Below, in pieces: positions 6,512 through 29,441 of a stretch of DNA of 33,075 nucleotides (the first letter of the stretch is position 1; each line of letters starts with the position of its first letter). The position numbers and the translations under genes are program-made. The notes under the pieces are model-generated. The model was not told the origin of the DNA. It made no database searches and saw only the letters and a list, made by a program, of their open reading frames with translations. Source of the DNA: Pseudomonadota bacterium (GTDB taxonomy: Bacteria > Pseudomonadota > Gammaproteobacteria > Pseudomonadales > Moraxellaceae); NCBI GenBank assembly GCA_021804485.1, contig JAJZHM010000012.1:1-33075 (forward strand), read 5' to 3'.

Positions 6512-7152
6512 CCTGCCCCCCGCACATTACGGATGAGTTCTGCACCCAGCTTGCGTCGCAGGCCATGAATCAGCACATCGATCGTATTACTCTCAATTGG
6601 ATCTTCCGCCCCATAAATAGCCTCTTCCAGCTGACGTCGGTTATGCAGACGGCCTGGATGCAGCGCCAGAATACGCAACAAGGCAAATTCCCGATTACTC
6701 AGGGTCCAGTACGCTTGATCAGGACCATGAGCTTCATGGGTTTTCAGATTGATGCTCCAGGAACCCAGTTGCAGCAAATCCTGGGCGAGGCCTGATCTTC
6801 TCCGTTGTACCGCCCGGATTCGGGCCAGCAATTCCCGAATGGCAAAAGGCTTTTCAAGATAATCATCAGCGCCCAGGTCAAGTCCTGTAATACGTGCCTC
6901 AAGACCATCGCGTGCAGTCAGAATAATGACAGCAATATCAAATCGTCGTGCTCGCAAATCGCGCAAGGTTTCCAAGCCGTCGCCGTCGGGAAGATTGAGA
7001 TCCAGCAGGAGCAGATCATAGGTACACTTAAAAAGGAGCAGTGGTACCTGGGCGAGACGCTGTTCCCAATCCACGACATAGGCAGCGTCTTGTAGGGCAG
7101 TCACCACAGCCTCACCAATCATTCGATCATCTTCCACAAGCAGTAGTTGCAT
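6490..7152 (-). CDS. OmpR-family response regulator
   Basis: A 220-residue two-domain regulator. The receiver has acidic residues VEDD at 6-9, the phosphoacceptor Asp51 (LLLDLNLPDGDG), Thr79 and Lys101 (EKPF). The C-terminal winged helix has SNREFALLRIL and ends SNTIDVLIHGLRRKLG followed by IRNVRGAGW, typical of the OmpR/PhoB DNA-binding domain. The ORF track opens 25 codons earlier; the start at 7152 is preferred because MQLLLVEDD is the normal receiver N-terminus and GAGGA lies 5-6 bases before that ATG. Its start lies inside the last 26 bases of the RND gene and its end overlaps the kinase gene. It is the probable transcriptional regulator of the efflux operon. Confidence 0.94.
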   Translation of the reverse strand: MQLLLVEDDRMIGEAVVTALQDAAYVVDWEQRLAQVPLLLFKCTYDLLLLDLNLPDGDGLETLRDLRARRFDIAVIILTARDGLEARITGLDLGADDYLEKPFAIRELLARIRAVQRRRSGLAQDLLQLGSWSINLKTHEAHGPDQAYWTLSNREFALLRILALHPGRLHNRRQLEEAIYGAEDPIESNTIDVLIHGLRRKLGAELIRNVRGAGWFIANY

Positions 7153-10100
7153 GATGTCCTCGTTGCAACCAGAAATAGAGCGCTGGCATGACCCATAACG
7201 ACAATGGCAACTGTACGGCAAGTCCACTTATGATGGCAATGGCCAGAGGTTGCTGCATCCGGGCACCTTCACCAAGCGCCAGAGCCAAGGGCAAAAGCGT
7301 CAGGATTGCCGTTAGTGTTGTCATGAGGATGGGTCGCAGTCGTTCCAGACCGGCTTTGAGCAGAATCTGATCCAGTGGTATCGTTGAATTTGTACGGTCT
7401 ACGCCACTGAAGTAAAAGATGCCAACTTCAGTAACGATTCCTGCCACCATGGTCATCCCCATCATGGAGGATATATTTAGCGTAACATGCGTTAGCCAAA
7501 GACCGATGAAGACGGCGCTGATGGAGAGCAGGGGAATACAAAGAAGCGCCAAAGCGCGACCGAATTCCTCATAGAGAAAAAGAAGAAGCAGAAAGATGAG
7601 GGCGAGGCCAGCCAACATTACGATCAACAGCCCTTTGAAGGCCATTTGTTGCTGGGCATACAGGCCACCAATCCGAACATAGTAACCAGGAGGGAAAAGT
7701 CCGGGTTTCTTGAGCATGCTCTGTACGTGGGCGAGAACCCTGCCCATGTCGCCTTGATCAATCCGGGCGGTGACGGCAACCATCCGTTGGAGATCCTGGC
7801 GTGAGATTTCATTTTGTCCGGATACAGGTATGAGTCGGGCAATACGGTTTAGAGGAATGAAACTGCCCGAGGGTGTCTGGACGGGTAATTCCGAGAGCGA
7901 TTCAATCGACAGGCTGGCTTGATGATCCCACCAGATACGCAAGGAAATCATACGATGATTGGCATAGACGGGTGTTAGGGTGTCTCCCTGTATGGCCTGA
8001 TGCACCTGTTTCTGAACGTCTGCAATCGTAAGACCGAGGGTACTGGCACGCTCTGGGTCAATCTCGATTTGCAAAGCATCGCCTGCCGGATTAATGCCAT
8101 CCACTATGTCCACAACGTGAGGTATGAGGGTTAGTTGACGCGTTAGGGTATGGGCGAGATGTTCGAGTATGACGGGATTATCACCAAAGATCTTGAGCTC
8201 AATGGGCTGGGGAACAGCAGTCAGATCACCAATCAGGTCCTCCATGAGTTGGGACATTTCAATGCTTAAGCCAGGTACTTCGGACTGAATGCGGCTGCGA
8301 AGCTCATTCATGACAACTTCGACCGGGTCGGGATGATTGGGCTTCAATCTGATAAAAAGATCACCGGCATTCACTTCGGTCAGCCAGCCACCCAACTGTG
8401 CGCCGGTACGACGAGAGTAACTGGCAACATTGCGGTTATTCCGAATGATTTGTTCCATGATGCGTACGACCCGATCAGTTTCGGTCAGTGATGTGCCTGG
8501 TTGAGTGCGGTAGTCCAGAGTGAAGCCACCTTCGTCCATAGCAGGCATGAAACCGGAGTCAACATGCCGATAGGCCATGAATCCTGATATCAGTAATGGA
8601 ACCACGAGCAGAAGTGTGAGCCAGGGCCGCTGGATGCTGCTCAGGAACAGGTGTTCGTATCCCTGAATAAGGGCGCGTTCCCATACAGGCTGATGTTTCT
8701 GCGATTTGTGTTTTCCAATCAGCGCATCTGCCATCAGGGGAATTACAAGCCAACTGATCAGAAAAGAGACGACCAGACTGATACTCATTGAAATGGCGAG
8801 GGCCTTGAAAAAAGCGCCGGAAACACCGGACAGGAAGGCGAGAGGCAGAAAAATGATCAGGGTGGCTGCACTTGAACCTGCCAGAGGTTTAAGGAAATTA
8901 ACTGCAATCTCAACATCAGAATGCTTTTGACCACGATGCGTTGCCAGTTGTTCGATCACCACAATGGCATCATCCAGAATCAGCCCGACCGCCGCCGCAA
9001 TGCCACCCAGAGTCATGATATTCAGGCTCATGCCCAGAACATTCATGATCAGAAGGGTGCTGGCCAGTACACTGGGTACAACGAGGATGGCAATCAGTGT
9101 CATGCTGAGATTGCGGAGGAAGATCTGCAGGACAATCCCCGCTAAGACAATGCCGATCAGTACTGCGTCCCGAACACTGAGCAGCGATTGTTCAACCAGA
9201 TGACTTTGTTGATACCATGTGCCAATGGCCAGATCGGCGGGAAGGTCGGCTCGATGATCCTTGAGGGTCTGGTTGATGAGGTGGGTCATTTCAACACTGT
9301 TGGCATCAGGTTGTTGATAGACCAGCAAAAGAACAGCTTCTTTGCCATCGGCATTGATGCGTTGCCATCTCGGCACAGTTCCCATCTGAACCGTTGCCAC
9401 ATCGCCTAATCGGACAGGGAGGCCAGCATGGACGGCAATAATGATCTTTTTTAGATCTTCTTCAGAAGTTATGTCTTGATGGACCATGCTAAGGTAAAGT
9501 TTGTAGTGGTCTTCCAACCGTCCCGTAGTCTTGATGAGCCGATTGCTTTGCAGTGATTCGGCAATAGCCTGCGCGGAGAGACCGAAAGCTTGGCAACGAC
9601 CGGGATCAAGATTAACCTGAAACTCGGCCAGATCACCGCCTTGAATCCCGATATGGGCAACACCTGGTATGGCAGCTAAAAGGGGTAGAAGCCGGGTTTT
9701 GGCAATCCAGCGTTGTTCTGTCGTACTTAATTTCGTGGAGTTAAGACTGAATGCCAGAACGGGGAACCGGGTTGGATCCATTCGGTCGCTTTGCAGCTGA
9801 GTTCCTCCAGGCAGTTCAGGCAAGAGTTCGGCAAGGGTTGAACGCACATTCAGTTCGGCCAGACTCATGTCATGACCCCAGGCAAACTCTACGGAAATTT
9901 CAGCGCTACCCCGACTGGTCGTCGAACGCACGCCCTTTACCCCAGGAATACGTCGCAGTCGTTCCTCCAAGGGTTGGGTAACTTGCACAAGCATTTGTTC
10001 GGCTGATCGGTCCCCCAAGTCGACATTGACTGAAATCCGAGGGAAACTGACCATTGGAAATAAACTTACCCGCATACGTGAGTATGCGAAACACCCTCCC

Positions 10101-10162
10101 AGAACGACCATCATCATCAGAAAAATCAGGGAGCGGCGATGATGATTAATCCATTCAGCCAT
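7127..10162 (-). CDS. RND-family efflux pump, inner-membrane permease
   Basis: About 1011 residues, with the two-fold repeated RND plan: an N-terminal helix, a large periplasmic loop, six helices, a second periplasmic loop, then a final helix bundle. Proton-relay aspartates are present in TM4 (LILDDAIVVIE, about residues 395-405), as in the AcrB group. CzcA-type metal pumps have DGAVVIVEN at this position, so drug or organic-solute export is more likely than metal export. It forms a tripartite pump with the two genes upstream. The start at MAEWINHHRR (10162) is chosen because the TTG-opened extension reads as non-membrane sequence; the upstream ribosome site (AAGGAA) is rather far, so this start is provisional. 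The substrate is unknown. Confidence 0.93.
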   Translation of the reverse strand: MAEWINHHRRSLIFLMMMVVLGGCFAYSRMRVSLFPMVSFPRISVNVDLGDRSAEQMLVQVTQPLEERLRRIPGVKGVRSTTSRGSAEISVEFAWGHDMSLAELNVRSTLAELLPELPGGTQLQSDRMDPTRFPVLAFSLNSTKLSTTEQRWIAKTRLLPLLAAIPGVAHIGIQGGDLAEFQVNLDPGRCQAFGLSAQAIAESLQSNRLIKTTGRLEDHYKLYLSMVHQDITSEEDLKKIIIAVHAGLPVRLGDVATVQMGTVPRWQRINADGKEAVLLLVYQQPDANSVEMTHLINQTLKDHRADLPADLAIGTWYQQSHLVEQSLLSVRDAVLIGIVLAGIVLQIFLRNLSMTLIAILVVPSVLASTLLIMNVLGMSLNIMTLGGIAAAVGLILDDAIVVIEQLATHRGQKHSDVEIAVNFLKPLAGSSAATLIIFLPLAFLSGVSGAFFKALAISMSISLVVSFLISWLVIPLMADALIGKHKSQKHQPVWERALIQGYEHLFLSSIQRPWLTLLLVVPLLISGFMAYRHVDSGFMPAMDEGGFTLDYRTQPGTSLTETDRVVRIMEQIIRNNRNVASYSRRTGAQLGGWLTEVNAGDLFIRLKPNHPDPVEVVMNELRSRIQSEVPGLSIEMSQLMEDLIGDLTAVPQPIELKIFGDNPVILEHLAHTLTRQLTLIPHVVDIVDGINPAGDALQIEIDPERASTLGLTIADVQKQVHQAIQGDTLTPVYANHRMISLRIWWDHQASLSIESLSELPVQTPSGSFIPLNRIARLIPVSGQNEISRQDLQRMVAVTARIDQGDMGRVLAHVQSMLKKPGLFPPGYYVRIGGLYAQQQMAFKGLLIVMLAGLALIFLLLLFLYEEFGRALALLCIPLLSISAVFIGLWLTHVTLNISSMMGMTMVAGIVTEVGIFYFSGVDRTNSTIPLDQILLKAGLERLRPILMTTLTAILTLLPLALALGEGARMQQPLAIAIISGLAVQLPLSLWVMPALYFWLQRGHHATTACGR

Positions 10163-10246
10163 GTTCAAGACCGGTTCCTTGGTTGAGGTACAGGAACACA
10201 AAAGCACTGAGTAAGTGTGTAGCGATGGCTGTTGACACCGGAAAGA

Positions 10247-11263
10247 TCATGGCAGCAGTTCTTCCCGAACCGGCATACCATCCTGAAGCTCATAGTTGCC
10301 AAGTACAACAATATGCTGGCCAGCAACAAGATCGCCACTGACCGCCACCCAGCCGTTGTCCTCATGACCTGCATTAACAGGCACCCGGTGGGCGTGACCT
10401 GAAGAGATGCGATAGACAAAACTGCCTTCGTTGTCCTGAAGTACGGCTGCACGAGGGACCGCCAGAAGATTCTGGGTTGAGACCGTAATACGGGCGCGTA
10501 GTGCCATTCCTTCCAGTATGGGATTTTGTTTGACGCTGACAAGAATCTCGACTTTACGAGTCTGAGGATCAACGCTGTGTCCAATCATGCTGATCCGGCC
10601 TGAGCCATTTTGTACGGATGAGAAAACGTCCCCAAAACGTACATTCATGCCAGTGGCCAGGCGGGCAGCATCTTCAGGATCGACCTGTAGCACGGCATCC
10701 ATCTTGTGTTCTGCTCCAATACTGACGAGCATGGTATGTGCATCGACATGGTCACCCTCATGAACCATGATCTGGGACACAATGCCATTTTGGGGTGCGG
10801 TAAAGATCAGTTCAGCATGATCGGCCCCAAGACTCTTTAAGGTACGGATTGCCAGTTCAGCCGTACGAACGTTGTGCTCAGCTTGGGCTACATTGGCTTG
10901 GGTCCCTAGTTGAGCTTCGGCAAGTTGTTGTTGTTGGGCTAGGTCCTGACGGGCCAGAACCAGCTGATTCTGTGCCTGAACCCAGTTTTGTATGACCGTG
11001 GGGTCAAGGTGAAGCACCAGAAGTTTCTGACCTTTAACAACATGCGCGCCATTTTGTACAGTCAATTCAGTGATGGTGCCAGGTTCGGAAGATGTGAGGT
11101 GACTGATCGCTGTTGTTGGTGTACGCATGACACCAAAGCAATTAATGACTGTGGCAATAGGCCTTGCAGCCAGTATCTGGGCCTGTACGTCGGCTGTAGG
11201 TGTGTTGTCGGCAAGGCCAAAGGCCGAAAAAAAACAGAAAAGAAATAACCAGAATTTAGACAT
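10247..11263 (-). CDS. RND efflux membrane-fusion (periplasmic adaptor) protein
   Basis: About 338 residues. It begins with a Sec signal peptide (MSKFWLFLFCFFSAFGLA). Next come a biotinyl-lipoyl-like half (GTITELTVQNGAHVVKGQKL), a short coiled-coil hairpin rich in Gln/Ala, the second lipoyl half (APQNGIVSQIMVHEGDHV) and a beta-barrel region. This is the normal order for HlyD/AcrA-family adaptors. The start at 11263 is preferred to the ORF-track start (11296) because it gives a clean signal peptide; it overlaps the stop of the outer-membrane factor gene by 8 bases. It links the RND pump to the outer-membrane channel. Confidence 0.92.
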   Translation of the reverse strand: MSKFWLFLFCFFSAFGLADNTPTADVQAQILAARPIATVINCFGVMRTPTTAISHLTSSEPGTITELTVQNGAHVVKGQKLLVLHLDPTVIQNWVQAQNQLVLARQDLAQQQQLAEAQLGTQANVAQAEHNVRTAELAIRTLKSLGADHAELIFTAPQNGIVSQIMVHEGDHVDAHTMLVSIGAEHKMDAVLQVDPEDAARLATGMNVRFGDVFSSVQNGSGRISMIGHSVDPQTRKVEILVSVKQNPILEGMALRARITVSTQNLLAVPRAAVLQDNEGSFVYRISSGHAHRVPVNAGHEDNGWVAVSGDLVAGQHIVVLGNYELQDGMPVREELLP

Positions 11264-12587
11264 GTTGAATTCGTTCCCATTCTGGTACATAGCCACTCAG
11301 GGTCATGATATCCAGTTGAAGTTCATCGAGCTTGTGTTGCTCACGGATGAGATCCAGGTGTCTTTCCAGGCAGGAACGATTCTGGGGCCCAACCATCTCC
11401 AGCGTGATGGCTCCCTGGTCGAGCAGGTTTTGCCAATGCGCTGATGGAGCACAGATTATACGCCATGCAGTATCGGCTTGCTTGACCCGTGTCTTTTCAA
11501 AAACAACTTGTTCTGCAAGCCAGCGTAAGCGCCGATCCTCTTTGGCTAGTCGCAGGCGATAGACGGTTTCAGCTTCAGCACGACTGACTTCAGCAAGGCG
11601 GGCACGGGCCTGTCCTTGCCCCAGAAAGGACAGAGGCAACTGGATGGAAAACCCGAGTGTATGATTATCGGCTGTATCAAGGCCGTCATTCAGTCCGAGG
11701 GATAGATCGGGAAACTGCTGAATGATGGCCGTACGCAACTGCATATCGCTCGCTTGGGCAGCCCGTTTCAGGGCAAGCAGATCAGGGCGTTGATTCATCA
11801 AGGAAGGTTGAACCATTTCATTGTGAACAGGGGGCAGGGGTGCAAGTCTGAGCCTGGTTTCGGGATTAATGCCCAGTAACGTATGCAAGGCAAAAAGATC
11901 ATGGTCGCGTTGTTGTCTGACGTTATGAAGATCAGTCTCAATCGTCTGAAATTGTTGTAGCGTTTCGAGCAGCAAAGGTTTGGTCATCAACTCCTTGCTG
12001 ACCGCATTTTCTTCCCGGGTTTTCAGATTTGAAATCAGGGCTAATTCTTGCTGGAGCAGGTTCAGGGCTGCCGTGTCAAAAGATAACTGATAGCATACTG
12101 AACGTATCTGGCCCACAATCAGCCATTCCTGCCAGAGCAGATCCAAGTGAATAGATTCAGACTGGAAGTGATGGAATCGTTGCTGATCATGATGGGTGAT
12201 CAGTGAAGCAATATCAAAATTCAGGTTGTTATTCCATGCCGTAAAGTGATCGGGGCCACTGATCGGTCGATCGCGACCACCGCCATAAACCGGTTCAGGC
12301 AACATTCCTGCCACGACCAGTTCCAGTTCCTGTACATGCAGTTGGGCTCGCATTTCGACGAGATGAGGGTTATGGCTTACCGCCAGCAGTTCCAGGGTGC
12401 TAAGATCAAGTGGTTGGTCTTCATGGACTTCATGATCAGGAAGGGGTTGACCGGCAAGACTGGTTGCGGAGACCACAAGAGGCCCATAAATGGGCCTGTC
12501 CGGGGAGAAAGAGGGATGATAATGGACACAGGCTGCCATATTCAGGGCACACGCCAGTATAATTCCGGGCTTAAGCACGTTGTTCAT
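11256..12587 (-). CDS. TolC-family outer-membrane efflux lipoprotein
   Basis: A 443-residue protein with a signal sequence ending NMAAC, a plausible lipobox, so it is probably lipid-anchored as in OprM/NodT-type factors. The long helical segments rich in Gln, Leu and Glu, with two repeats (ELLAVSHNPHLVEMRAQL and the later RPDLLALKRAAQASDMQL), match the duplicated outer-membrane efflux protein domain. It is the first gene of the five-gene operon, an order (channel, adaptor, pump) seen in many RND systems of the heavy-metal and HAE-like groups. The operon promoter should lie in the 104 bases shared with the divergent amidotransferase gene. Confidence 0.9.
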   Translation of the reverse strand: MNNVLKPGIILACALNMAACVHYHPSFSPDRPIYGPLVVSATSLAGQPLPDHEVHEDQPLDLSTLELLAVSHNPHLVEMRAQLHVQELELVVAGMLPEPVYGGGRDRPISGPDHFTAWNNNLNFDIASLITHHDQQRFHHFQSESIHLDLLWQEWLIVGQIRSVCYQLSFDTAALNLLQQELALISNLKTREENAVSKELMTKPLLLETLQQFQTIETDLHNVRQQRDHDLFALHTLLGINPETRLRLAPLPPVHNEMVQPSLMNQRPDLLALKRAAQASDMQLRTAIIQQFPDLSLGLNDGLDTADNHTLGFSIQLPLSFLGQGQARARLAEVSRAEAETVYRLRLAKEDRRLRWLAEQVVFEKTRVKQADTAWRIICAPSAHWQNLLDQGAITLEMVGPQNRSCLERHLDLIREQHKLDELQLDIMTLSGYVPEWERIQHV

Positions 12588-17548: not shown

Positions 17549-18729
17549 CAAATGGCTCCCCGGACAGCCATTTCATCCATTTGGTCTTGTGAAAATCCAA
17601 GGCTGGACAGGACGGAACGGGTATGAGCACCCAATGCAGGTCCGGGCCATTTCATTTGTCCGGGGGTACGGTCCAGTTTTGGAACAATGCCGGGGACCGT
17701 CAGTGACGAGCCATCTTCAAGCTGGGTCGTGAGCAGCATCTTGCGGGCAAGAAAATGGGGATCCCTGAACATGTCCGCAACCGAGTACACCTTACTGGCA
17801 GGCACATCAGCCTGCTCAAGATTGCGAAGCAGGTCATCCGCATCATGCTGGGCAGCCCAGCGATCAAGCGTGGCATAGATTTCATCACGATGCTGATCCC
17901 GGCCGGCGTTATCGCGGAACTCGATTCGGGTGAGCCAGTCTTCGTGTCCGATGACTTTGCAAAGTCGTTGAAAAATCTCGTCCCCGTTACCGGCAATCAG
18001 GACTGGCTGCCCATCCTTGCTGAGATGGGTTGAAGATGGTGTGATGCCTGGCATGATGTTGCCACTACGCTCGCGAATGAACCCCTGATGGTCATACTCT
18101 GGAACCAGACTTTCCATCATTGCAAACACCGCCTCGTACAGTGCAACATCCACAACCTGTCCAAGGCCTGTGGCATCACGATGACGAAGTGCCATCAGGG
18201 CGCCAATTACGGCAAATAATGCCGCAAGTGAATCACCAATGGAGATACCTGTACGAACCGGTGGACGGTCGGCAAAACCGGTTACATAGCGGAGCCCCCC
18301 CATGGATTCACCGATGGCGCCAAAGCCTGGGCGTTGTGCATAAGGACCGGACTGGCCAAATCCGGAAAGCCTGACAATAACAAGTCGAGGGTTAAGGCGC
18401 TGAAGATCCTCAGGGCCAAGTCCAAGGCGTTCCAGAACTCCAGGACGAAAATTCTCGACAAGTATATCCGCACGCTGAAGCAGTCGACGTAAGGCATCAA
18501 GCGCATCAGAATCCTTGAGATTAAGGGTCACTGATTTTTTATTACGGGACTGTACGGCCCACCACAGGGATGTGTCCTTGTGAAGGCGGCGCCAGCGTCG
18601 CAAAGGGTCCCCCTTGCCGGGTGGTTCGATTTTGACGACATCGGCACCAAACTCTGCGAGCAAGCGCGTCGCAAATGGCCCGGCAATCAGCGAGCCAAGC
18701 TCAACCACGGTGATTCCGTTCAGGGGCAT
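17548..18729 (-). CDS. class III CoA-transferase (CaiB/BaiF family)
   Basis: 393 residues, the usual size. The N-terminus MPLNGITVVELGSLIAGPFA and the motifs GADVVKIEPP, RNKKSVTLNLK and LVENFRPGVLERLGLG are family hallmarks. The aspartate in GISIGDSLAALFA is at the position of the catalytic Asp that forms the acyl-aspartyl intermediate in formyl-CoA transferase. It moves CoA between carboxylic acids; the acid cannot be identified (succinyl-CoA, mesaconate or carnitine-type substrates are all possible). The ORF track opens at a TTG 17 codons earlier; the ATG at 18729 matches the family N-terminus. It is coupled to tcdA downstream. Confidence 0.9.
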   Translation of the reverse strand: MPLNGITVVELGSLIAGPFATRLLAEFGADVVKIEPPGKGDPLRRWRRLHKDTSLWWAVQSRNKKSVTLNLKDSDALDALRRLLQRADILVENFRPGVLERLGLGPEDLQRLNPRLVIVRLSGFGQSGPYAQRPGFGAIGESMGGLRYVTGFADRPPVRTGISIGDSLAALFAVIGALMALRHRDATGLGQVVDVALYEAVFAMMESLVPEYDHQGFIRERSGNIMPGITPSSTHLSKDGQPVLIAGNGDEIFQRLCKVIGHEDWLTRIEFRDNAGRDQHRDEIYATLDRWAAQHDADDLLRNLEQADVPASKVYSVADMFRDPHFLARKMLLTTQLEDGSSLTVPGIVPKLDRTPGQMKWPGPALGAHTRSVLSSLGFSQDQMDEMAVRGAI

Positions 18730-18785
18730 GCACGTACGCTCAATAGTTAATTTATCGGATTTTAGCACAGGAATACTCAAATTTA

Positions 18786-18814
18786 CTGGCAGTCACTACC
18801 CGATCAGATATACT
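18786..18814 (+). promoter_or_regulatory. predicted sigma70 promoter of sqr
   Basis: CTGGCA (18786-18791; four of six consensus -35 bases) and TATACT (18809-18814; a good -10) are 17 bases apart. Transcription would begin about 18821, and the sqr start codon follows at 18842. The -10 is embedded in the palindrome listed next. Confidence 0.45.
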
Positions 18815-18827
18815 CTAGGGGGTATAT
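18808..18827. promoter_or_regulatory. CsoR/CstR-like operator palindrome upstream of sqr
   Basis: ATATACTCTAGGGGGTATAT has matching outer arms ATATAC and GTATAT, a G-rich centre and a TAG core. It resembles the ATACCCC-TA-GGGGTAT operators of the CsoR/CstR/FrmR repressor family. CstR controls sulfide-oxidation genes, including sqr, in Staphylococcus. The site overlaps the predicted -10 and ends 2 bases before the ribosome site GAGGAA (18830-18835), a position suited to repression. The repressor gene is not in this window, so the assignment is by operator resemblance and context only. Confidence 0.5.
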
Positions 18828-18841
18828 ATGAGGAAACAGCA

Positions 18842-20128
18842 ATGGCTAAAATCATCGTGCTTGGTGGTGGAATCGGTGGGCTTGCAGGTGCTTATGAACT
18901 CAAGAAAGATCTGGGTTCGGCTCATGAAATCATGCTCGTTAATGAGAGGGAAGATTTCTGGTTTACTCCCTCCAATCCATGGGTCGCCGTAGGTTGGCGG
19001 GAAGCCCGCGAAATCAGTTTTCCAATCCGGCTCCATGCAGAAAAGAAGGGCATTCGTTTTATTGCCCAACGTGTTGATCATATTGATCCGGAACGCCGAA
19101 TTTTGACTTTTGCGGATGCAAGTACCCAGGATTATGATTATCTCGTGATTGTTACGGGCCCTAAGCTGGCATTTGATGATGTTCCGGGTGCGGGTCCGGA
19201 AGGATTTTCCCAATCGGTCTGCACTCTCGATCATGCACTCAAGACACGTCAGGAGGTCGAACAATTACTGAAGCAGCCGGGTTCGGTCATTGTTGGTGCC
19301 TTGCCTGGTGCCAGTTGCTTTGGCCCCGCATACGAATACCTGATGATTCTGGAAACAGTGTTGCGTCGTGCCAAAAAAAGACACAAGGTGCCGATGACCT
19401 ATGTAACCAGTGAACCCTATATTGGGCATTTGGGACTGGGTGGTGTTGGAGACTCCAAGGGGATGATGGAATCACTGCTGCGTGATCGTTCCATCAAATG
19501 GATCTGTAATGCCCGAACTACACGAATCGAACAGGGCCGAATGCATGTTGAAGAGTTGAATACCGAAGGCCAGGTTATCAAAACTCATGAACTGCCTTTT
19601 GTGCACAGCATGATGCTGCCCGCATTCAAAGGGGTTGATGCGGTGGCCCAGGTTCCTGGCTTGTGTAATCCACGCGGATTCGTGCTCATTGATGCGCAGC
19701 AACGAAGTACCCGTTATCCCAATATTTACGCGGCAGGAGTGTGTGTGGCGATCCCGCCGGTTGAGGTGACTCCTGTGCCAACCGGAGCACCCAAGACAGG
19801 GTATATGATTGAATCGATGATGACCACGATCGTCACCAATATCAAGGCTGTTCTGCAAGGGAAACCTGCCGCAGCTGAAGCCAGCTGGAATGCATTTTGT
19901 CTGGCAGACTTTGGCGACACGGGTGCCGCGTTTGTTGCTGTTCCTCAACTGCCTCCCCGTAATACCACCTGGTACAAAAAAGGCATTTGGGCACACTGGG
20001 CTAAGGTTGGGTTTGAAAAATATTTTTTGCTCAAGATGAAAAATGGAGTGCCCGAACCTTTATTTGAACGACTGGCGCTTAGAGCCATTGGGCTCAAGCG
20101 CATCGATCCGGACCTTTCTCGTCAATAA
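18842..20128 (+). CDS. sqr: sulfide:quinone oxidoreductase, type I-like
   Basis: About 428 residues, peripheral membrane flavoprotein. FAD binds at VLGGGIGGLAGAYEL (residues 6-20). Three cysteines match the conserved set of the Acidithiobacillus ferrooxidans enzyme: one in QSVCTLDHA, one in GASCFGPAYE and one in YAAGVCVAIPPVE. The segment EPYIGHLGLGGVGDSKGMME is also characteristic. It oxidises sulfide to sulfane sulfur or polysulfide and passes the electrons to quinone. The ATG at 18842 is chosen because GAGGAA lies 6 bases before it and the Rossmann motif starts at once; the ORF-track start (18614) lies inside the divergent CoA-transferase gene. trxC follows after 19 bases, suggesting an operon. 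Confidence 0.94.
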   Translation: MAKIIVLGGGIGGLAGAYELKKDLGSAHEIMLVNEREDFWFTPSNPWVAVGWREAREISFPIRLHAEKKGIRFIAQRVDHIDPERRILTFADASTQDYDYLVIVTGPKLAFDDVPGAGPEGFSQSVCTLDHALKTRQEVEQLLKQPGSVIVGALPGASCFGPAYEYLMILETVLRRAKKRHKVPMTYVTSEPYIGHLGLGGVGDSKGMMESLLRDRSIKWICNARTTRIEQGRMHVEELNTEGQVIKTHELPFVHSMMLPAFKGVDAVAQVPGLCNPRGFVLIDAQQRSTRYPNIYAAGVCVAIPPVEVTPVPTGAPKTGYMIESMMTTIVTNIKAVLQGKPAAAEASWNAFCLADFGDTGAAFVAVPQLPPRNTTWYKKGIWAHWAKVGFEKYFLLKMKNGVPEPLFERLALRAIGLKRIDPDLSRQ

Positions 20129-21893: not shown

Positions 21894-21920
21894 CCTGAAG
21901 TCTGGAGCTAAATCTTCAGG
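21894..21920. repeat. short inverted repeat at the convergent ends of hemW and the SDR gene
   Basis: CCTGAAG (21894-21900) and CTTCAGG (21914-21920) are perfect 7-bp arms with a 13-base loop, spanning the SDR stop codon. It could be a hairpin between convergent genes. There is no U-tract, so a terminator role is only possible. Confidence 0.3.
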
Positions 21921-22645
21921 CGGTGAAACACTATGCGGGGAAAGTGACGCAGGATCAGCATGATCCATCGCCAGCGGCGGGGCGTGTAGAGTACCCATGC
22001 CTTCTGGCGGATGGCGTCATTGATGTCCGCAGCAACCTGTTCAACCGGAGCCAGTCTCACGCCTGCTGTTTTCAGATGTGCGGTCATGGCCGTATCGGTT
22101 GGTCCTGGCTTAATCAGCGTGACATGAATCCTTGAGTTTGCAAACCGGTGTTGCAGTCCTTCACTGAGGCGATCAAGCAGCGCCTTTGAGGCGCCATAAA
22201 CATAATTTGACTGACGTCCCCGATCACCAGCAACAGATCCGAACAGAACCAGATGACCGTAGCCCTGTCTGAAAAAATAGTCGGCACTTTTCAATGCACA
22301 TAAAGCCGGGGCAACAGCGTTGCTCTCGAAGGCTGCGTGGGCTGCATCCAGATCCTGTTCACAGTCTTGCTGGTTAGAAAGAACACCCTGAGCGAGACAA
22401 ATCAGATCAATATGCGAACGTTCGTCCAGAAAACGGACAAATTGCGGCACATCATTCAGATCACAGACATGGACCTCATAGATGCTGGCAGGGCTACGAA
22501 TTTGCAGATCGGCTTGCATTTGCTGCAGGCGAACAATATTACGACCGACCAGACAAACATGTTTCGCCTGTGGCTCTGTAGCCCAGACACGCAGCAGTGC
22601 CTGCATAATGCCGGAAGTGGCAGCACAAACGACAATATGTTGCAT
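21908..22645 (-). CDS. DprE2-like SDR: polyprenyl-phosphoryl-2-ketoribose reductase
   Basis: 245 residues, short-chain dehydrogenase fold. Catalytic Tyr and Lys are in YVYGASKALLD, preceded by LFGSVAGDRG. The C-terminus WIMLILRHFPRIVFHRLKI closely follows the ending of mycobacterial DprE2 (MMVLRHIPRSIFRKLPI), as does the KPGPTDTAMTAHLK segment. DprE2 reduces the 2-keto intermediate with NADH, completing the change from ribose to arabinose on the lipid carrier. In the cofactor loop AATSGI, the first glycine of the usual GATSGI is alanine. The ATG at 22645 is chosen because GGAGAGG lies 5 bases before it. It is downstream of, and probably coupled to, the DprE1-like gene. Confidence 0.82.
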   Translation of the reverse strand: MQHIVVCAATSGIMQALLRVWATEPQAKHVCLVGRNIVRLQQMQADLQIRSPASIYEVHVCDLNDVPQFVRFLDERSHIDLICLAQGVLSNQQDCEQDLDAAHAAFESNAVAPALCALKSADYFFRQGYGHLVLFGSVAGDRGRQSNYVYGASKALLDRLSEGLQHRFANSRIHVTLIKPGPTDTAMTAHLKTAGVRLAPVEQVAADINDAIRQKAWVLYTPRRWRWIMLILRHFPRIVFHRLKI

Positions 22646-22665
22646 ATCAGCCTCTCCAGTTTGAC

Positions 22666-23958
22666 TCAGCATCCCAGAAGTCGCCGGGACAGGGCTGAAC
22701 TCAGGCCAGGATCACGATAGTCGAGAAAACGTTCCCAATCGGGATATCCAGTACGAAAAAGCGCTACCGGCATGCGTGCGTCCTTCGCCATGTAGATGCA
22801 TCCACCGGCTTCCTGGATAATGCGATCAAGCCGTTGGAACAGCCGCTCAGTCTGCATGGATTCGTTTGGGAAATCCAGTGCCAGTGTCGTTCCGGGTCGA
22901 GCAAAACTGAGCATACCCGGTGAGGTTCGTTGACCGAATGTTTTGAGAACAGCAAGAAATGAACCTCGTCCCGAACGGACAATGGTTTGCAGCAGGGCTT
23001 TGACAGCCTCTCTTTCGCTATGGGGCGGTACTAGACATTGGTACTGGTAGAAACCCTTTCGGCCATACATCCGGTTCCAGTTCTGTATGTGATCAAGGGG
23101 GTATAAAAAGGGTTGGTAGTGTACCAGCCTTGGCGAGGCTTTTAGTCGGTTGGTATGGTAGTACAACGGATTGAAAAGATGCAGGCTCAGCCTATTGACC
23201 AGAGAGAATGGCGGGCTCCATGGCATCCGTCGATGTTTCTCCTTAGGAATTTGATCGGCAAGCGGACTGTGTTTGCCGCGCATGAACAGTCCTCGGGGAG
23301 GATATCGGGTGCAGTCAAGCCAGGCGACGGTGTAGGGCCATTGAGGATCATGTTGATGAGCGAGTTGAAAATAGTCATCAACATGGTGAAAGGGCTGGAT
23401 TTCCTGCTCCATCCATGCACCAGGGACGCGCATCAGTTTAAGACGGGCGCTTTGGATCATTCCGGTCAATCCAAGTCCACCTAGTGTTGCCCTGAACAGT
23501 GGTGCGTCAGGATCAACCAGATTGAGCAACTGGCCATCGGTGCGAACAAGCCTCAAAGAGAGGACGTGATGTCCGAATGAACCTGCATCATCATGATTTT
23601 TACCATGCACATCGTTGGCAATGGCGCCACCAACCGTGACCCACTGTGTGCCCGGACTGACGGGCAGCATCCAGCCACGCACAATCATGAGGCGCTGAAT
23701 GGTACCGAGCAGCACGCCACTTTCACATTCCAGAATTCCTGAAATGGCGTCAAATGATATGAACTGATCAAGTCGTTCCGTCATGAGCAGACGACCGCCT
23801 GGATTCAGTGCGACATCTCCGTAACTTCGACCGGCACCATGGGCAATGATCTTGCCCGGTTCAGCCAATACATGGGGGAGCAGGTCGCGTTGCCATACAT
23901 ACTCCAGTTCATGGGGATCATGGGACAACCCGCCCCAGCAAAGCGAAGCAGAAATCAT
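22666..23958 (-). CDS. DprE1-like FAD oxidase: polyprenyl-phosphoribose 2'-epimerase subunit
   Basis: 430 residues, VAO/PCMH flavoprotein. The segments HGAGRSYGD (40-48), LPVSPGTQWVTVGGAIANDV and HGKNHDDAGSFGHHV match mycobacterial DprE1, including the FAD-binding histidine region. The lysine corresponding to Lys418 is in MAKDAR near the C-terminus. DprE1 oxidises decaprenyl-phosphoryl-ribose to the 2-keto form. The cysteine attacked by benzothiazinones (Cys387, context NICVDFP) is alanine here (LALDFP, Ala360). The start at 23958 overlaps the gtrA-like stop as ATGA and has AAGGAA upstream; the ORF-track start is 21 codons too early. Confidence 0.85.
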   Translation of the reverse strand: MISASLCWGGLSHDPHELEYVWQRDLLPHVLAEPGKIIAHGAGRSYGDVALNPGGRLLMTERLDQFISFDAISGILECESGVLLGTIQRLMIVRGWMLPVSPGTQWVTVGGAIANDVHGKNHDDAGSFGHHVLSLRLVRTDGQLLNLVDPDAPLFRATLGGLGLTGMIQSARLKLMRVPGAWMEQEIQPFHHVDDYFQLAHQHDPQWPYTVAWLDCTRYPPRGLFMRGKHSPLADQIPKEKHRRMPWSPPFSLVNRLSLHLFNPLYYHTNRLKASPRLVHYQPFLYPLDHIQNWNRMYGRKGFYQYQCLVPPHSEREAVKALLQTIVRSGRGSFLAVLKTFGQRTSPGMLSFARPGTTLALDFPNESMQTERLFQRLDRIIQEAGGCIYMAKDARMPVALFRTGYPDWERFLDYRDPGLSSALSRRLLGC

Positions 23959-24455
23959 AGGGATTCCTTGCGAAATACGTACTGGCGATCTAACTGGTAT
24001 TTGATGAAATACCCAAGGCAAAGACCCAATACGGCACCGACATAACGCATATCCGGGTTGCTGAAGAGAAGGCGAAAACCCAATTCACTCACCCAGAAAA
24101 TGACGGTCGTAACCACACCCATAAGACTGTATAGGATAAAGGTCGATCCGTCATGGCGCAGGTTTTGAGGAACAAAGGCAAAAATGAACCTACGGTCGAG
24201 CCAGTATTTCACCAGCAGTCCGGTCAGTGTTCCGGCAAGCATGGAGATGATAAGGACTGGTTCATAGACTGGTTTATAGATAAGAGTTTGGGTCGTTGCA
24301 TGCAAGGGAAAGAGAAGGCAGACAGCGTGTTGCGTTTCCAAGTTAACCAATGTCGAAATGGCTGCAAAAAAACTGTAGAGAAACAGAATTCGCACAATGA
24401 ATGTCATCTGAGGCTGTCTGGGGCCTATGCTATCATGCGTTCCAGTGCTTGTCAT
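23955..24455 (-). CDS. GtrA-family membrane protein (possible lipid-sugar flippase)
   Basis: 166 residues (150 if the ATG at 24407 is used), four predicted membrane helices. Two internal repeats end in the family motif: VKYWLDRRFIFAF and IKYQLDRQYVFRK. GtrA proteins are proposed to move polyprenyl-linked sugars across the inner membrane. The mycobacterial GtrA-like protein Rv3789 is encoded beside dprE1/dprE2 and was proposed to flip decaprenyl-phosphoryl-arabinose, although a role in recruiting arabinosyltransferases has also been suggested. The gene precedes dprE1 with an ATGA overlap. The first ATG is only 11 bases from the divergent start codon, so the internal start at 24407 (MTFIVRILFLY) may be the real one. 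Confidence 0.82.
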   Translation of the reverse strand: MTSTGTHDSIGPRQPQMTFIVRILFLYSFFAAISTLVNLETQHAVCLLFPLHATTQTLIYKPVYEPVLIISMLAGTLTGLLVKYWLDRRFIFAFVPQNLRHDGSTFILYSLMGVVTTVIFWVSELGFRLLFSNPDMRYVGAVLGLCLGYFIKYQLDRQYVFRKESL

Positions 24456-24466
24456 GGTAGCTTGTT

Positions 24467-25897
24467 ATGGTTGATTGTACCCCGACGGATGGAATTGTGC
24501 TTTGTGTCGACATGGATGGATCGTTGATTCGTTCCGATACCCTGCTGGAGAGTATGCTCCGTCTGATCAAGGTGAAACCATGGACTCTCTTTATGCTGCC
24601 GTTCGTGCTGCTGCAGGGGCGCCTGCACTTCAAACAGTGGATCAACAAACAGGTACAGATTGATCCGGCCAGTCTGCCCTATAACGAGCCGTTGTTGCAG
24701 TGGCTACGGCAGCAGAAAGCGAAGGGAAGGCGACTTGTGCTGGCGACCGCTTCGGTACAGTCGGTGGCTGATCGGGTTGCCCGGCATGTCGGGATCTTTG
24801 ATGAGGTGATTGGTTCCCAAACAATCAATCTCAAGGCATCCCAAAAGGCCAACGAGTTGGTTCAGCGTTTTGGTGAACAGGGTTTTGACTATGTCGGCAA
24901 CAGCCAGGACGATCTGGCGGTGTGGCAACATGCGCGGCAGGCCATTGCGGTACAGGCGCCCGCCCGAGTACTCCTTCAGCTTGCCAGTTCACATACTCTT
25001 GTCATCTTTAAGGATAACACTTCAAAAATCCAGTTGTTCTGGCGTGCCCTGCGCCCACATCAGTGGGCTAAGAATGGCTTGATCCTGGTGCCGGTTTTGC
25101 TGGCACATCGGTTTTTCCAGTTGGATGAATGGATTAAGTGTCTGTGGGCCTTCGGTTCGTTTTCATTGACCGCTTCAAGCGTTTATGTGCTTAATGATCT
25201 GCTTGATCTGGATGCTGATCGCATGCACGCCACTAAAATGGCACGGCCCTTTGCGAGTGCTCAGCTATCCCTTTCCATTGGGCTTGCCATGGTGCCACTC
25301 TTGTTGGTCGCCGCAGCCGTGTTGGCTGCATTCCTGCCACTGGGTTTTCTTGGTGTCCTTGCATTTTATTATTTTTGTACCCTGCTTTATTCTTTTTGGT
25401 TTAAAAGTCAGGTTCTTCTTGATGTACTGGCTCTGGCCTTACTGTATACCGTTCGTCTGCTGGCTGGAAAGGTCGCCTCTGATGTTCCGCTGTCGTTCTG
25501 GCTCTTAACTTTTTCGCTTTTCCTGTTCTTTAGTCTGGCATTGGTTAAGCGATACAGTGAACTTATGCAGAAAAGAAAAGATCATCAGATGAAGGCCTAT
25601 GGGCGAGGCTACCACATTGAAGACATGGTCATGCTGATGATCTTTGGGGTCACCAGTGCCATGACATCGGTGCTGGTTCTGGCTCTGTATATCAACAGTG
25701 CTCAGGTCAGGATAGGGTACCATCACCCGGAATGGCTTTGGCCCATGGTGCCGGTACTGCTTTACTGGGTCAGCCGGGTATGGGTCCTTGGGCACCGTGG
25801 CCTGATGCACGAAGACCCGGTTCTATTCGCCTTGCGCGATCGGGTAAGTTGGGGGGTCTTTGCAGTTCTGGCCTTGACCCTGCTGCTCGCCTTGTAG
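24467..25897 (+). CDS. HAD phosphatase-UbiA prenyltransferase fusion (phosphoribosyl-lipid synthase)
   Basis: 476 residues in two parts. Residues 10-190 are a HAD hydrolase: nucleophile motif VDMDGS (14-19), motif II LATAS, and the acidic motif GNSQDD. Residues 190-476 are a UbiA-type membrane prenyltransferase of about eight or nine helices, with the first Asp-rich motif NDLLDLDAD (243-251) followed by KMARPFASAQ and the second helix pair YSFWFK--LLDVLALALLYTVRLLAG. This resembles Rv3806c, which joins PRPP and decaprenyl phosphate. The HAD part would remove the 5-phosphate, a step assigned to Rv3807c in mycobacteria (inference). So one protein could make polyprenyl-phosphoryl-ribose for the divergent DprE1/DprE2 genes. 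The start cannot lie further in, as motif I follows at once. Confidence 0.85.
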   Translation: MVDCTPTDGIVLCVDMDGSLIRSDTLLESMLRLIKVKPWTLFMLPFVLLQGRLHFKQWINKQVQIDPASLPYNEPLLQWLRQQKAKGRRLVLATASVQSVADRVARHVGIFDEVIGSQTINLKASQKANELVQRFGEQGFDYVGNSQDDLAVWQHARQAIAVQAPARVLLQLASSHTLVIFKDNTSKIQLFWRALRPHQWAKNGLILVPVLLAHRFFQLDEWIKCLWAFGSFSLTASSVYVLNDLLDLDADRMHATKMARPFASAQLSLSIGLAMVPLLLVAAAVLAAFLPLGFLGVLAFYYFCTLLYSFWFKSQVLLDVLALALLYTVRLLAGKVASDVPLSFWLLTFSLFLFFSLALVKRYSELMQKRKDHQMKAYGRGYHIEDMVMLMIFGVTSAMTSVLVLALYINSAQVRIGYHHPEWLWPMVPVLLYWVSRVWVLGHRGLMHEDPVLFALRDRVSWGVFAVLALTLLLAL

Positions 25898-25997: not shown

Positions 25998-26558
25998 TCA
26001 TGGAAAATATTCCGCTGTCTTGAAAGCCACGCCAAGAACATCCTTGGGGGATAGTTGCGGAGAGGTTCCTTCCAATGGCCAAGCAATGGCAAGGTCAGCA
26101 TCATTCCAGCGGATACACCGCTCATGAGCCGGGCTGTAATAGTCGGTGGTTTTATAGAGAAAATCTGCCTGTTCCGTTAGAGTGAGAAATCCGTGGGCAA
26201 AACCAGGTGGTATCCAGAGCAGAGCTTTGTTTTCCGAACTCAGCGTCGCACCGACCCAGCGCCCAAAAGAGGGTGACCCCTTTCTCAGATCAACCGCCAC
26301 ATCAAACACCGCGCCTGCGACCACACGCACCAGCTTTCCCTGAGCATGGGGGGAAAGCTGATAATGCAGGCCCCGAAGCACCCCTTGAACCGAACGACTG
26401 TGATTATCCTGAACAAAACCCAAAGTACGCTGTTCAAGCGGCAGGTGTTCCATAAACTGGCGCTGATTAAAGCTTTCGAAAAAGAAGCCGCGTTCATCGC
26501 CAAAGATCCGGGGTTCAATCAGGAGTACTTCCGGAATATCAAGGGGAATGACGTTCAT
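25998..26558 (-). CDS. rfbC: dTDP-4-dehydrorhamnose 3,5-epimerase
   Basis: 186 residues, cupin-fold RmlC. The N-terminal [17 protein letters not shown], the GVLRGLHYQ strand with the catalytic histidine, [16 protein letters not shown] and the tyrosines of [11 protein letters not shown] are all family signatures. It performs the double epimerisation in dTDP-L-rhamnose synthesis, the third step of the pathway. It is the last gene of rfbBDAC and its start overlaps the end of rfbA by 4 bases. It is convergent with the HAD-UbiA gene, 100 bases away. Confidence 0.96.
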
Positions 26559-27433
26559 GAACTGGCTCCTACCAGATGACGAAGATACTGACCATAACCA
26601 TTTTTCAACATGGGTTTGGCCAGCTTCTCAAGCTGTTCAGCATCAATCCAGCCCTGGGTAAAGGCAATCTCTTCCGGACAAGCAACTTTAAGTCCCTGAC
26701 GTGTTTCCAGAGTTGCAATAAATTGACTGGCTTCAAGCAGTGAATCATGGGTTCCCGTGTCCAGCCATGCATAGCCACGTCCCATTATTTCAACAGATAG
26801 CTTACGGTCGCGCAGATAAAGCGCATTCAGATCCGTAATCTCTAGTTCGCCGCGTGCGGAGGGTTTGAGTTGCCTCGCGTATTCAACGACATTTTCATCG
26901 TAGAAATAAAGACCGGTAACCGCGTAGTTGGAGCGAGGGTTCTGGGGTTTTTCTTCCAGACTTAAAGCTCTTCCGGAGGCATCAAAATCGACGACACCAT
27001 AGCGCTCGGGATCTTTGACGTGGTAGGCAAAGACACTTGCCCCCTGTTCACGTTCATGAGCCGAGGCGAGGAGATTCGGAAGATCGTGACCATAAAATAT
27101 ATTATCTCCGAGAATCAGTGCAGAATGATACCCGCGTACAAAATCTTCACCAATCAGGAACGCTTGCGCAAGACCATCCGGGCTGGGCTGAATCGCATAA
27201 GTTAGTTCCAGTCCCCATGCATGGCCATTGCCGAGAAGTTGCTGAAAACGTGGGGTATCCTGGGGGGTTGAAATGATCAGGATTTCGCGCAGACCCGCCA
27301 GCATGAGGGTACTGAGCGGATAGTACACCATGGGTTTGTCATAGACAGGCAGAAGTTGTTTGGAAATCGCCAATGTGGCCGGATGGAGGCGTGTTCCTGA
27401 GCCACCAGCCAGAATAATGCCGCGTCGTTTCAT
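26555..27433 (-). CDS. rfbA: glucose-1-phosphate thymidylyltransferase
   Basis: 292 residues. The nucleotidyltransferase signature [11 protein letters not shown] (10-20) with [16 protein letters not shown], then [11 protein letters not shown] with the metal-binding aspartate, and YGVVDFD are typical RmlA. It makes dTDP-glucose from dTTP and glucose-1-phosphate, the first step to dTDP-L-rhamnose, and is normally feedback-inhibited by dTDP-rhamnose. ATGA overlap with rfbD upstream and a 4-base overlap with rfbC downstream show translational coupling. Confidence 0.96.
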
Positions 27434-28353
27434 GAAGGGGTTCCTTGCATCAGCATGAAGGTAAGATGATCAATGATCGGATTGATGTCCTGCTGCCAGT
27501 TGGGCATGGCAGGGACGCCAAGCAACGTGCATAGCTGGCTGGTGTCCAAACGGGAATTAAGTGGTCGAGGTGCTGGAACCGGATATTCAGAGGAAGGAAT
27601 CGGTTCAATATCTTCAGGGTTGAGTTGGGTTACTAGACCCAACTGACGCGCCCGACGAACAATATATTGAGCATAGTCGAACCATGTGGTGCTGCCTGAA
27701 GCCGTCAGATGGAAGATTCCTGATGTATACATGCTGTCCGGTTGTTCGAGAAACTGTACAGTTGTTCTGGCAATCAGTTCAGCGGCAGTCGGCGCACCCA
27801 TTTGATCGTCAATGACACGCAAATCAGAACGATTCTGCGACAGACGCAGTATGGTACGAATGAAATTATTCCCCTGCATGCCGGCCACCCAGGATGTCCT
27901 GAAAATCACATGGCGACAAGAGGACTTGAAAATTGCCTGTTCGCCTGCAAATTTGCTTTTGCCGTAAACAGAAAGCGGGCATGGCTCGTCTGTTTCGACG
28001 TAGGGGGCAGACTTTGTACCATCAAACACATAGTCCGTTGAGTAGTGTACAAACTGGGCATCATTGCGGGCGCACCAGCGAGCCATCAGACCTACGCTTT
28101 CAGCATTGACCCGAAAAGCCCGTTCAGGTTCGCTCTCAGCTTTGTCCACAGCGGTATAGGCGGCAGGATTAATCACCAGCGTGGGTTTAAAGGTGTTGAG
28201 AACTGACTCAATATGATCGGGTTCGTCAAGGTTGAGCTGATTTCGATCCAGACCAGTACAGTTGTTTTTGCCAAAAGCAATCAATAGGGCGGAACCCAGT
28301 TGACCCGATATGCCGGTAATAATGGTTTTCTGCTGCTGGAGATGATCAGGCAT
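27430..28353 (-). CDS. rfbD: dTDP-4-dehydrorhamnose reductase
   Basis: 307 residues, extended SDR fold. The NAD(P)-binding loop is GISGQLG (14-20), the catalytic serine-threonine strand [10 protein letters not shown], and the active-site YGKSK follows in [27 protein letters not shown] is a hallmark of RmlD. It reduces the 4-keto group to give dTDP-L-rhamnose, the last step of the pathway. It overlaps rfbB by 8 bases and rfbA by 4. Confidence 0.96.
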
Positions 28354-29407
28354 GATATTGGCTCGTCAACCATTGCCGATAACTGCCACTGGAGACTCCC
28401 TGAACCCAGTCCGTATGGTCAAGATACCAGGATACCGTTTTGCGTAGTCCGCTCGCAAAGGTTTCTGCAGGTCTCCAACCTAGTTCCTGTTCCAGTTTGC
28501 GCGCATCAATGGCATAGCGGCGATCATGTCCCGGTCGGTCACGAACAAAACGGATCTGATCTGCATAGGACTTTCCGTCGGAACGGGGTTTCAGTTCATC
28601 CAGCAAACCGCAGATCATGCGGACGACTTCGAGGTTGGCTTGCTCGTTCCAGCCACCGATGTTATAGGTTTCGCCGATTCGGCCGGCTTCAAGGACACGT
28701 CTCAGTGCACTGCAGTGATCCTTGACATAAAGCCAGTCCCTGACCTGTTGGCCATCACCATAGACGGGCAGATCTTTTCCTTCCAGAGCATGCAGAATCA
28801 CCAGAGGAATCAGTTTTTCTGGAAAATGATAAGGGCCATAATTATTACTGCAGTTGGTGGTCAGCACCGGAAATCCATAGGTATGGAACCATGCCCGAAC
28901 CAGATGATCACTTGCGGCCTTGCTTGCCGAATAGGGGCTGTTCGGCTGGTAGGGGTGGTCTTCCCGAAAGGCTGGGTCATTGGGTCCAAGACTGCCATAG
29001 ACTTCATCGGTCGAAACGTGCAGAAAACGAAAGCGATTACGTTCCTCTTCCGTGCATTCGAGCCAATAGGCCCGTACCGACTCCAGCAGGCGAAAGGTGC
29101 CAACAACATTGGTTTCTATAAAGGCACCAGGTCCATGAATTGAACGATCAACGTGGGATTCGGCCGCAAAGTTGATCACAGCCCTGGGTTTATGCTCAAG
29201 CAGTATACGGCTGACGAGCGCTGTGTCCCCGATATCACCTTGAACAAAATGATGGTGCTGATGATGGGCAATCGACTCCAGAGTCTGCAGATTTCCAGCA
29301 TAGGTAAGTTTGTCCAGATTGATCAGAAGCTCATCGTTATGTCCGATCCAGTCCAGTACAAAATTTCCACCAATAAATCCTGCACCACCTGTGACTAGAA
29401 TTGCCAT
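28346..29407 (-). CDS. rfbB: dTDP-glucose 4,6-dehydratase
   Basis: 353 residues. The NAD loop [10 protein letters not shown] (6-15), the catalytic triad strand [11 protein letters not shown] and the [11 protein letters not shown] motif (tyrosine near residue 158) define RmlB. It oxidises, dehydrates and reduces dTDP-glucose to the 4-keto-6-deoxy sugar. The ATG at 29407 has AAGGGA upstream; the ORF-track start is a TTG one codon earlier. It is the first gene of the rhamnose operon, and the promoter is predicted in the 154-base divergent region. Confidence 0.96.
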
Positions 29408-29441
29408 CAATATTTCCCTTTATGACAAGCTTTAAAGAATC

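Follow-up and report, generated by a model that had tools for sequence, protein, structure and literature searches.

Contig JAJZHM010000012.1 of the Moraxellaceae draft assembly GCA_021804485.1 (2.44 Mb, 175 contigs, 94% complete), analysed over its whole length of 33,075 nucleotides (the window), carries at 21908-25897 a cluster of four genes predicted to make polyprenyl-phosphoryl-β-D-arabinofuranose, the lipid-linked donor of D-arabinofuranose (D-Araf); we put the probability of this reading at about 0.8. It is well supported because profile matches, matches to solved structures, a phylogenetic tree, conserved motifs and conserved gene company all point to the donor pathway that the initial annotation had proposed. 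All four open reading frames (ORFs) are intact, and the UbiA protein includes the phosphatase as its N-terminal HAD domain. The contiguous genes had been named in this way before, and both the profiles and the recurring neighbours agree with those names. The assignment is not due to chance, given the NCBIfam scores and the recurrence of the same neighbours in distant taxa. The features of the cluster are the following:

24467-25897, plus strand: HAD-UbiA fusion protein
24408-24466, no strand: short intergenic region that presumably bears the promoters of the two divergent units
23955-24407, minus strand: GtrA-family membrane protein, presumed polyprenyl-phosphate-pentose flippase
22666-23958, minus strand: DprE1-like flavin adenine dinucleotide (FAD) oxidase, 430 aa
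21908-22645, minus strand: DprE2-like short-chain reductase, 245 aa

The HAD-UbiA gene is thus divergent from a GtrA/DprE1-like/DprE2-like operon, and rfbBDAC adjoins the cluster. Promoters between the two units are only presumed, because promoter-like matches in 24408-24466 do not exceed chance level. The oxidase gene starts at ATG 23958, not at TTG 24021; this codon overlaps the gtrA stop (ATGA) and is preceded by AAGGA inside the end of gtrA. The reductase probably starts at ATG 22645, which follows GGAGAGG, and gtrA probably at 24407, although its ORF is open from 24455.

The fusion protein scored 612.8 bits (3.9e-184) with NCBIfam PRK08238, whose cut-off is 351, and contains PF12710 (N-terminal, phosphoribose phosphatase) followed by PF01040 (C-terminal, polyprenyl-phosphate phosphoribosyltransferase). 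The sole PDB matches of the UbiA part were the Rv3806c-type decaprenyl-phosphate phosphoribosyltransferase structures 8j8j (4.1e-24) and 8j8k, while the HAD domain alone retrieved no sequence match in the PDB. The UbiA motifs are NDLLDLDAD from residue 243 (NDxxDxxxD) and KRYSE from residue 361 (the KRYxE loop), and the HAD nucleophile motif is kept as DMDGSL from residue 15 (DxDGSL). In Citrobacter ORF15, residues of the equivalent NDxxDxxxD motif are required, and the HAD aspartate takes off the 5-phosphate (Kelly et al. 2024, PMC11127046). The GtrA-family protein matched NCBIfam gtrA_1 with 153.5 bits (4e-45; cut-off 50), and PF04138 fell slightly under its cut-off with the window ORF and above it with the neighbouring frame. 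Its sequence family is that of a presumed dedicated lipid-sugar flippase of the set.

Among solved structures, the oxidase is closest to DprE1 (4aut, 5e-62), the next different protein lying at 1.6e-10, and it scored 318 bits with the NCBIfam DprE1 profile (about 1.2e-94 to 1.5e-94). In a maximum-likelihood tree it grouped with Mycobacterium smegmatis DprE1 (an aligned fragment on a long branch) with support of 97/98, and the 15 other FAD oxidases included from related genomes fell outside this group. A grouping with unrelated sugar enzymes, which would have spoken against the initial annotation, did not occur. The AKD lysine is retained. The reductase matched DprE2 best in the PDB (21gq_C, 1.8e-23), 40 bits ahead of the next short-chain dehydrogenase/reductase (2.7e-11), with about 141-142 bits for NCBIfam DprE2 (1.8e-41) and 215 bits for PRK07102. 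Its active-site motif is YGASK, and YxxxK was present in 88 of 88 aligned homologues. An HGKNH motif was also found among the cluster proteins.

Several observations weigh against this assignment of the pathway. The oxidase lies below the NCBIfam equivalog cut-off of 500 bits and the reductase below both of its own (250 for the DprE2 equivalog, 267 for PRK07102), and the glycine-rich cofactor motif of the reductase is AATSGIM here and in a congener, while most relatives have GATSAIA. Neither a GT-C transferase clearly belonging to the pathway (queries A2, A3 and single proteins) nor a Wzt_C protein was found in the genome; such absences are weak evidence, because the draft is only 94% complete and in 175 contigs. 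The low scores and the altered motif would fit an oxidase and reductase that had drifted in specificity, so that the product were another pentofuranose lipid (ribo, xylo or the keto intermediate), and in Citrobacter a different epimerase does yield xylofuranose (Xylf). We nevertheless consider such a drift improbable: among solved structures, DprE1 and DprE2 are by a wide margin nearest to the two enzymes, the two are found as a pair across loci, and the loci of known D-Araf glycans carry DprE1/E2, while those of Xylf glycans carry another epimerase type.

From the families, motifs and linkage found, we infer each reaction, the lipid carrier, the flipping of the donor, the transferase and the acceptor in this organism as follows. 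The UbiA domain would transfer 5-phosphoribose from phosphoribosyl pyrophosphate to polyprenyl phosphate (presumably undecaprenyl phosphate), and the fused HAD domain would strip the 5-phosphate. The DprE1-like enzyme would then oxidise the 2-hydroxyl and the DprE2-like enzyme would reduce the ketone to the arabino form. The donor would then be flipped by GtrA towards the periplasm; there a GT-C enzyme encoded elsewhere may attach D-Araf to a surface glycan, for which a rhamnose-containing polysaccharide is the likeliest candidate.

This series of reactions is that of the mycobacterial pathway (Rv3806c, Rv3807c, Rv3790 DprE1, Rv3791 DprE2 and Rv3789), with homologous synthase, oxidase and reductase. 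On comparison with the mycobacterial proteins, as the initial annotation had suggested, the Rv3806c-type phosphoribosyltransferase, DprE1 and DprE2 were the best solved matches. There are, however, differences. The phosphatase is a fused HAD domain and not the unrelated, separate Rv3807c; no AftB-type transferase was detected here (Emb and other Aft families were not searched); and the oxidase has an alanine (in TLALDFP) aligned with Cys387 of Mycobacterium tuberculosis DprE1. This cysteine is the covalent target of benzothiazinones and is dispensable for catalysis. DprE1 and DprE2 are tuberculosis drug targets, and the targeted cysteine is here naturally alanine. For mycobacterial Rv3789, an exporter role of the SMR type, as in Gtr systems, has been described. 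The window adds one more proteobacterial lineage expected to make D-Araf, which is known chiefly as a constituent of mycobacterial cell walls.

The gene company of DprE1 was compared in 95 loci: 80 from one scan of named genomes (mostly Proteobacteria, with a few other phyla), 14 from stretches of relatives' genomes, and that of the window; 94 of them could be scored. Since these loci were picked by similarity to the window DprE1 and are mutually related, the linkage counts describe and do not prove. DprE2 was present in 89 of the 94 loci and UbiA in 81. The phosphatase slot was filled by a window-like HAD domain (55 loci), a separate HAD protein (7) or a divergent PAP2 protein (DUF212) together with a standalone UbiA (8). 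The DUF212 protein probably replaces the HAD phosphatase in these eight loci (L051, L052, L056, L059, L063, L067, L071 and L077), which have the divergent layout of the window. A window-like GtrA occupied the flippase slot in 21 loci and an LPG_synthase_TM protein (PF03706) in 27, for example at L083:9036-10007 and L045:14122-15081. The two occurred together in 1 locus against 6.0 expected (Fisher 0.005, kinship ignored), and the LPG_synthase_TM family is a candidate alternative polyprenyl-phosphate-pentose flippase. No LPG_synthase_TM protein appears in the main text of Kelly et al. (PMC11127046), who name MATE and SMR-type transporters. The divergent layout tracks GtrA, found in 16 of 19 divergent versus 4 of 62 co-directional loci. 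These patterns suggest a constant core of synthase, DprE1 and DprE2, with phosphatase, flippase and transferase swapped between loci. In 23 of the 94 loci we also observed a linked module of an amine-oxidase-like FAD protein and an NAD epimerase, mostly with GtrA and often with a Pfam-less multi-transmembrane protein whose predicted fold is GT-C-like (for example at L066:14197-19289 and L041:11016-15180); this module possibly makes a second lipid-linked sugar.

The cluster is flanked by hemW and rfbC and includes no GT-C gene, and dprE2 likewise borders hemW in G006, a relative of genus g5. This, and the failure of the queries used to turn up a transferase, could mean that the donor genes are a remnant, kept after the working transferase was lost. 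Such decay seems hardly likely to us, as the four genes are intact, share 74-79% identity with their counterparts in a congener and are still tightly spaced, with overlapping or close starts; moreover, the diversity of GT-C sequences is too great to demonstrate that one is absent. A cluster that still makes the D-Araf donor remains our preferred reading. In the congener locus (L033) the adjacency to rfbBDAC is also kept. G+C content is flat along the window, without a compositional break, and thus gives no sign of recent import. No DprE1 relative was found in phage records, while plasmid records (mostly rhizobial) held 60, all below 60% identity. In other genomes the intervals flanking the cluster are occupied: G021 has PIG-L deacetylase-like and GT2 genes between hemW and dprE2 (L036:6443-9302), where the window has nothing, and in G001 a pair of RND pump genes separates rfbC from the HAD-UbiA gene.

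Gram-negative three-component pentofuranose systems, with that of Citrobacter youngae O1/O2 as prototype and including Araf variants bearing DprE1/E2, have been described previously for O antigens (Kelly et al. 2024, PMC11127046). As in the window, their UbiA-type polyprenyl-phosphate phosphoribose synthase is fused to an N-terminal HAD phosphatase, and the pentose is determined by auxiliary epimerase genes (DprE1/E2 in the Araf variants). Pilin D-arabinosylation in Pseudomonas paraeruginosa (PSPA7_6245-6251 with TfpW; PMC12369383) is older than that study and is a further proteobacterial case in which the D-Araf donor genes lie apart from the transferase gene, although synthase and phosphatase are unfused there. 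With both precedents the pathway type is already known and the window does not represent a new kind. The window differs in having a GtrA-family protein where the prototype has a MATE flippase, and donor genes split into two divergent units without a GT-C. The novelty raised by the initial annotation is reduced accordingly for the Gram-negative pathway; a transferase was found neither in the window nor, with the queries used, in the genome.

The acceptor may be sought among the genes beside the cluster:

25998-26558, minus strand: rfbC, dTDP-4-dehydrorhamnose 3,5-epimerase (PF00908, 9.1e-71)
26555-27433, minus strand: rfbA, glucose-1-phosphate thymidylyltransferase (recognised from the translation)
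27430-28353, minus strand: rfbD, dTDP-4-dehydrorhamnose reductase (recognised from the translation)
28346-29410, minus strand: rfbB, dTDP-glucose 4,6-dehydratase (PF16363, 1.5e-92)

In G004, a relative of another genus, HAD-UbiA and rfbBDAC are separated by genes for Wzm, Wzt with a Wzt_C domain, a methyltransferase and a GT4; these include an O-polysaccharide ABC exporter and suggest that a rhamnose polysaccharide is exported by this route in that organism. By analogy with this kin genome and from the gene neighbourhood here, a rhamnose-containing surface glycan would be the most likely acceptor of D-Araf in the window's organism, a weaker proposal than that of the donor. The relative's Wzm as query gave no match in this genome; wzm/wzt-like genes occur as a pair in the congener G002, at a different locus.

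As the initial annotation had stated, no GT-C transferase is encoded in the window. A search of the genome, which it had proposed, yielded one ArnT-like GT-C (G000:C69, L135:8289-11056), the sole PMT_2 protein found there (PF13231). This protein overlaps the end of lptF and matches the ArnT structure at 3.6e-33, and the genera g1, g3 and g5, which bear DprE1, have likewise retained a GT-C at their lptF locus. It might therefore transfer D-Araf from the proposed donor to lipid A or to the lipopolysaccharide core. We had first favoured it as the arabinosyltransferase, since it co-occurs with DprE1 in the family, and dropped it once partner genes were found: in three relatives (G012, G014 and G017) the homologue adjoins GT2, GtrA and YdjC genes, and a homologous trio lies here on another contig, between dnaE and accA (G000:C18, L047:13582-15804). 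This set resembles the amino-sugar lipid A system of Francisella, which makes it probable that the ArnT-like protein uses a different donor, supplied by the set itself. By analogy, the two loci look like a split lipid A amino-sugar system, to which the ArnT-like protein is better assigned, and a D-Araf acceptor in lipid A or core is unlikely.

Further searches of the genome were negative. Pfam-less GT-C families found near DprE2 in other bacteria (A2 and that of L060) gave no match, and in the parts of contig C41 (Wzy_C, WaaL-like) that were read there was no GT-C of the type sought. The donor genes correspond in type to PSPA7_6245-6251 (PMC12369383), which would suit decoration of a type IV pilin by a TfpW-like transferase, as in P. 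paraeruginosa. We regard this as very unlikely: no pilin gene lies close to the cluster, and the genome gave no match to PF00114, a model that misses many pilins, in an incomplete draft (TfpW was not searched).

Relatives bearing DprE1 provide other candidates, namely proteins resembling AftB, the terminal β-(1→2)-arabinofuranosyltransferase, which uses polyprenyl-phosphate-Araf; their occurrence with DprE1 speaks in favour of the donor assignment. A GT-C of G006 matches AftB in the PDB (9dlf, 5.8e-7) and in NCBIfam (1.2e-9), and a profile of nine AftB-like proteins retrieved AftB alone from the PDB (2.3e-40); the AftB-like profile had no match in the window's genome. Considering the residue roles described for AftB (catalytic Asp62, Arg221, Thr91, Glu172, Thr274 and the donor contacts; PMC12041299), the catalytic Asp and most donor-contact residues are held by these proteins: Asp62 and Arg221 were matched in 11 of 11 aligned relatives, Thr91 is Thr or Ser, and Glu172 and Thr274 were matched in most, but neither of them in L067 and L081, nor Thr274 in L039. 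Such relatives occur in four genomes with DprE1 (G006, G008, G035 and G037), where they fall far under the NCBIfam AftB cut-off, and also in G019, whose draft is 86% complete and in which DprE1 was not found; G004, its congener, has DprE1. The association with DprE1 among relatives is weak (hypergeometric 0.05). AftB-like members or weaker relatives were also present in the DprE1 loci L067, L077, L081 and L039. The AftB-like GT-C genes are located at L169:1887-3461, L191:6956-10332, L192:4984-6624, L193:8135-9751, L067:11764-13395, L077:7914-9866 and L081:5818-7434, and one genome has a tandem pair. They are concrete candidates for Gram-negative D-Araf transferases.

A second, Pfam-less family lies near DprE2 in many loci, and its predicted structure combines a membrane domain with a β-rich C-terminal domain (predicted local distance difference test, 89). 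The best PDB folds were the GT-C enzymes AftA, AglB, ArnT and AftB, with low TM-scores (0.26-0.41), and the predicted architecture resembles that described for GT136. As a tentative proposal, more doubtful than the donor assignment, an undescribed GT-C family encoded away from the donor cluster may attach D-Araf to a rhamnose-containing envelope glycan, while in related proteobacteria enzymes of the AftB type, which is known from mycobacteria, might take this role and may form β-linked D-Araf. Kelly et al. (PMC11127046) found almost no side-chain examples of β-linked D-Araf.

No Rfam or tRNA features were found in the window. Away from the cluster, a sulfide:quinone reductase-like protein is encoded at 18614-20128, adjoining a CaiB-type CoA-transferase and a thioredoxin-like gene, and RND efflux genes with a two-component regulator lie at 5156-12587.

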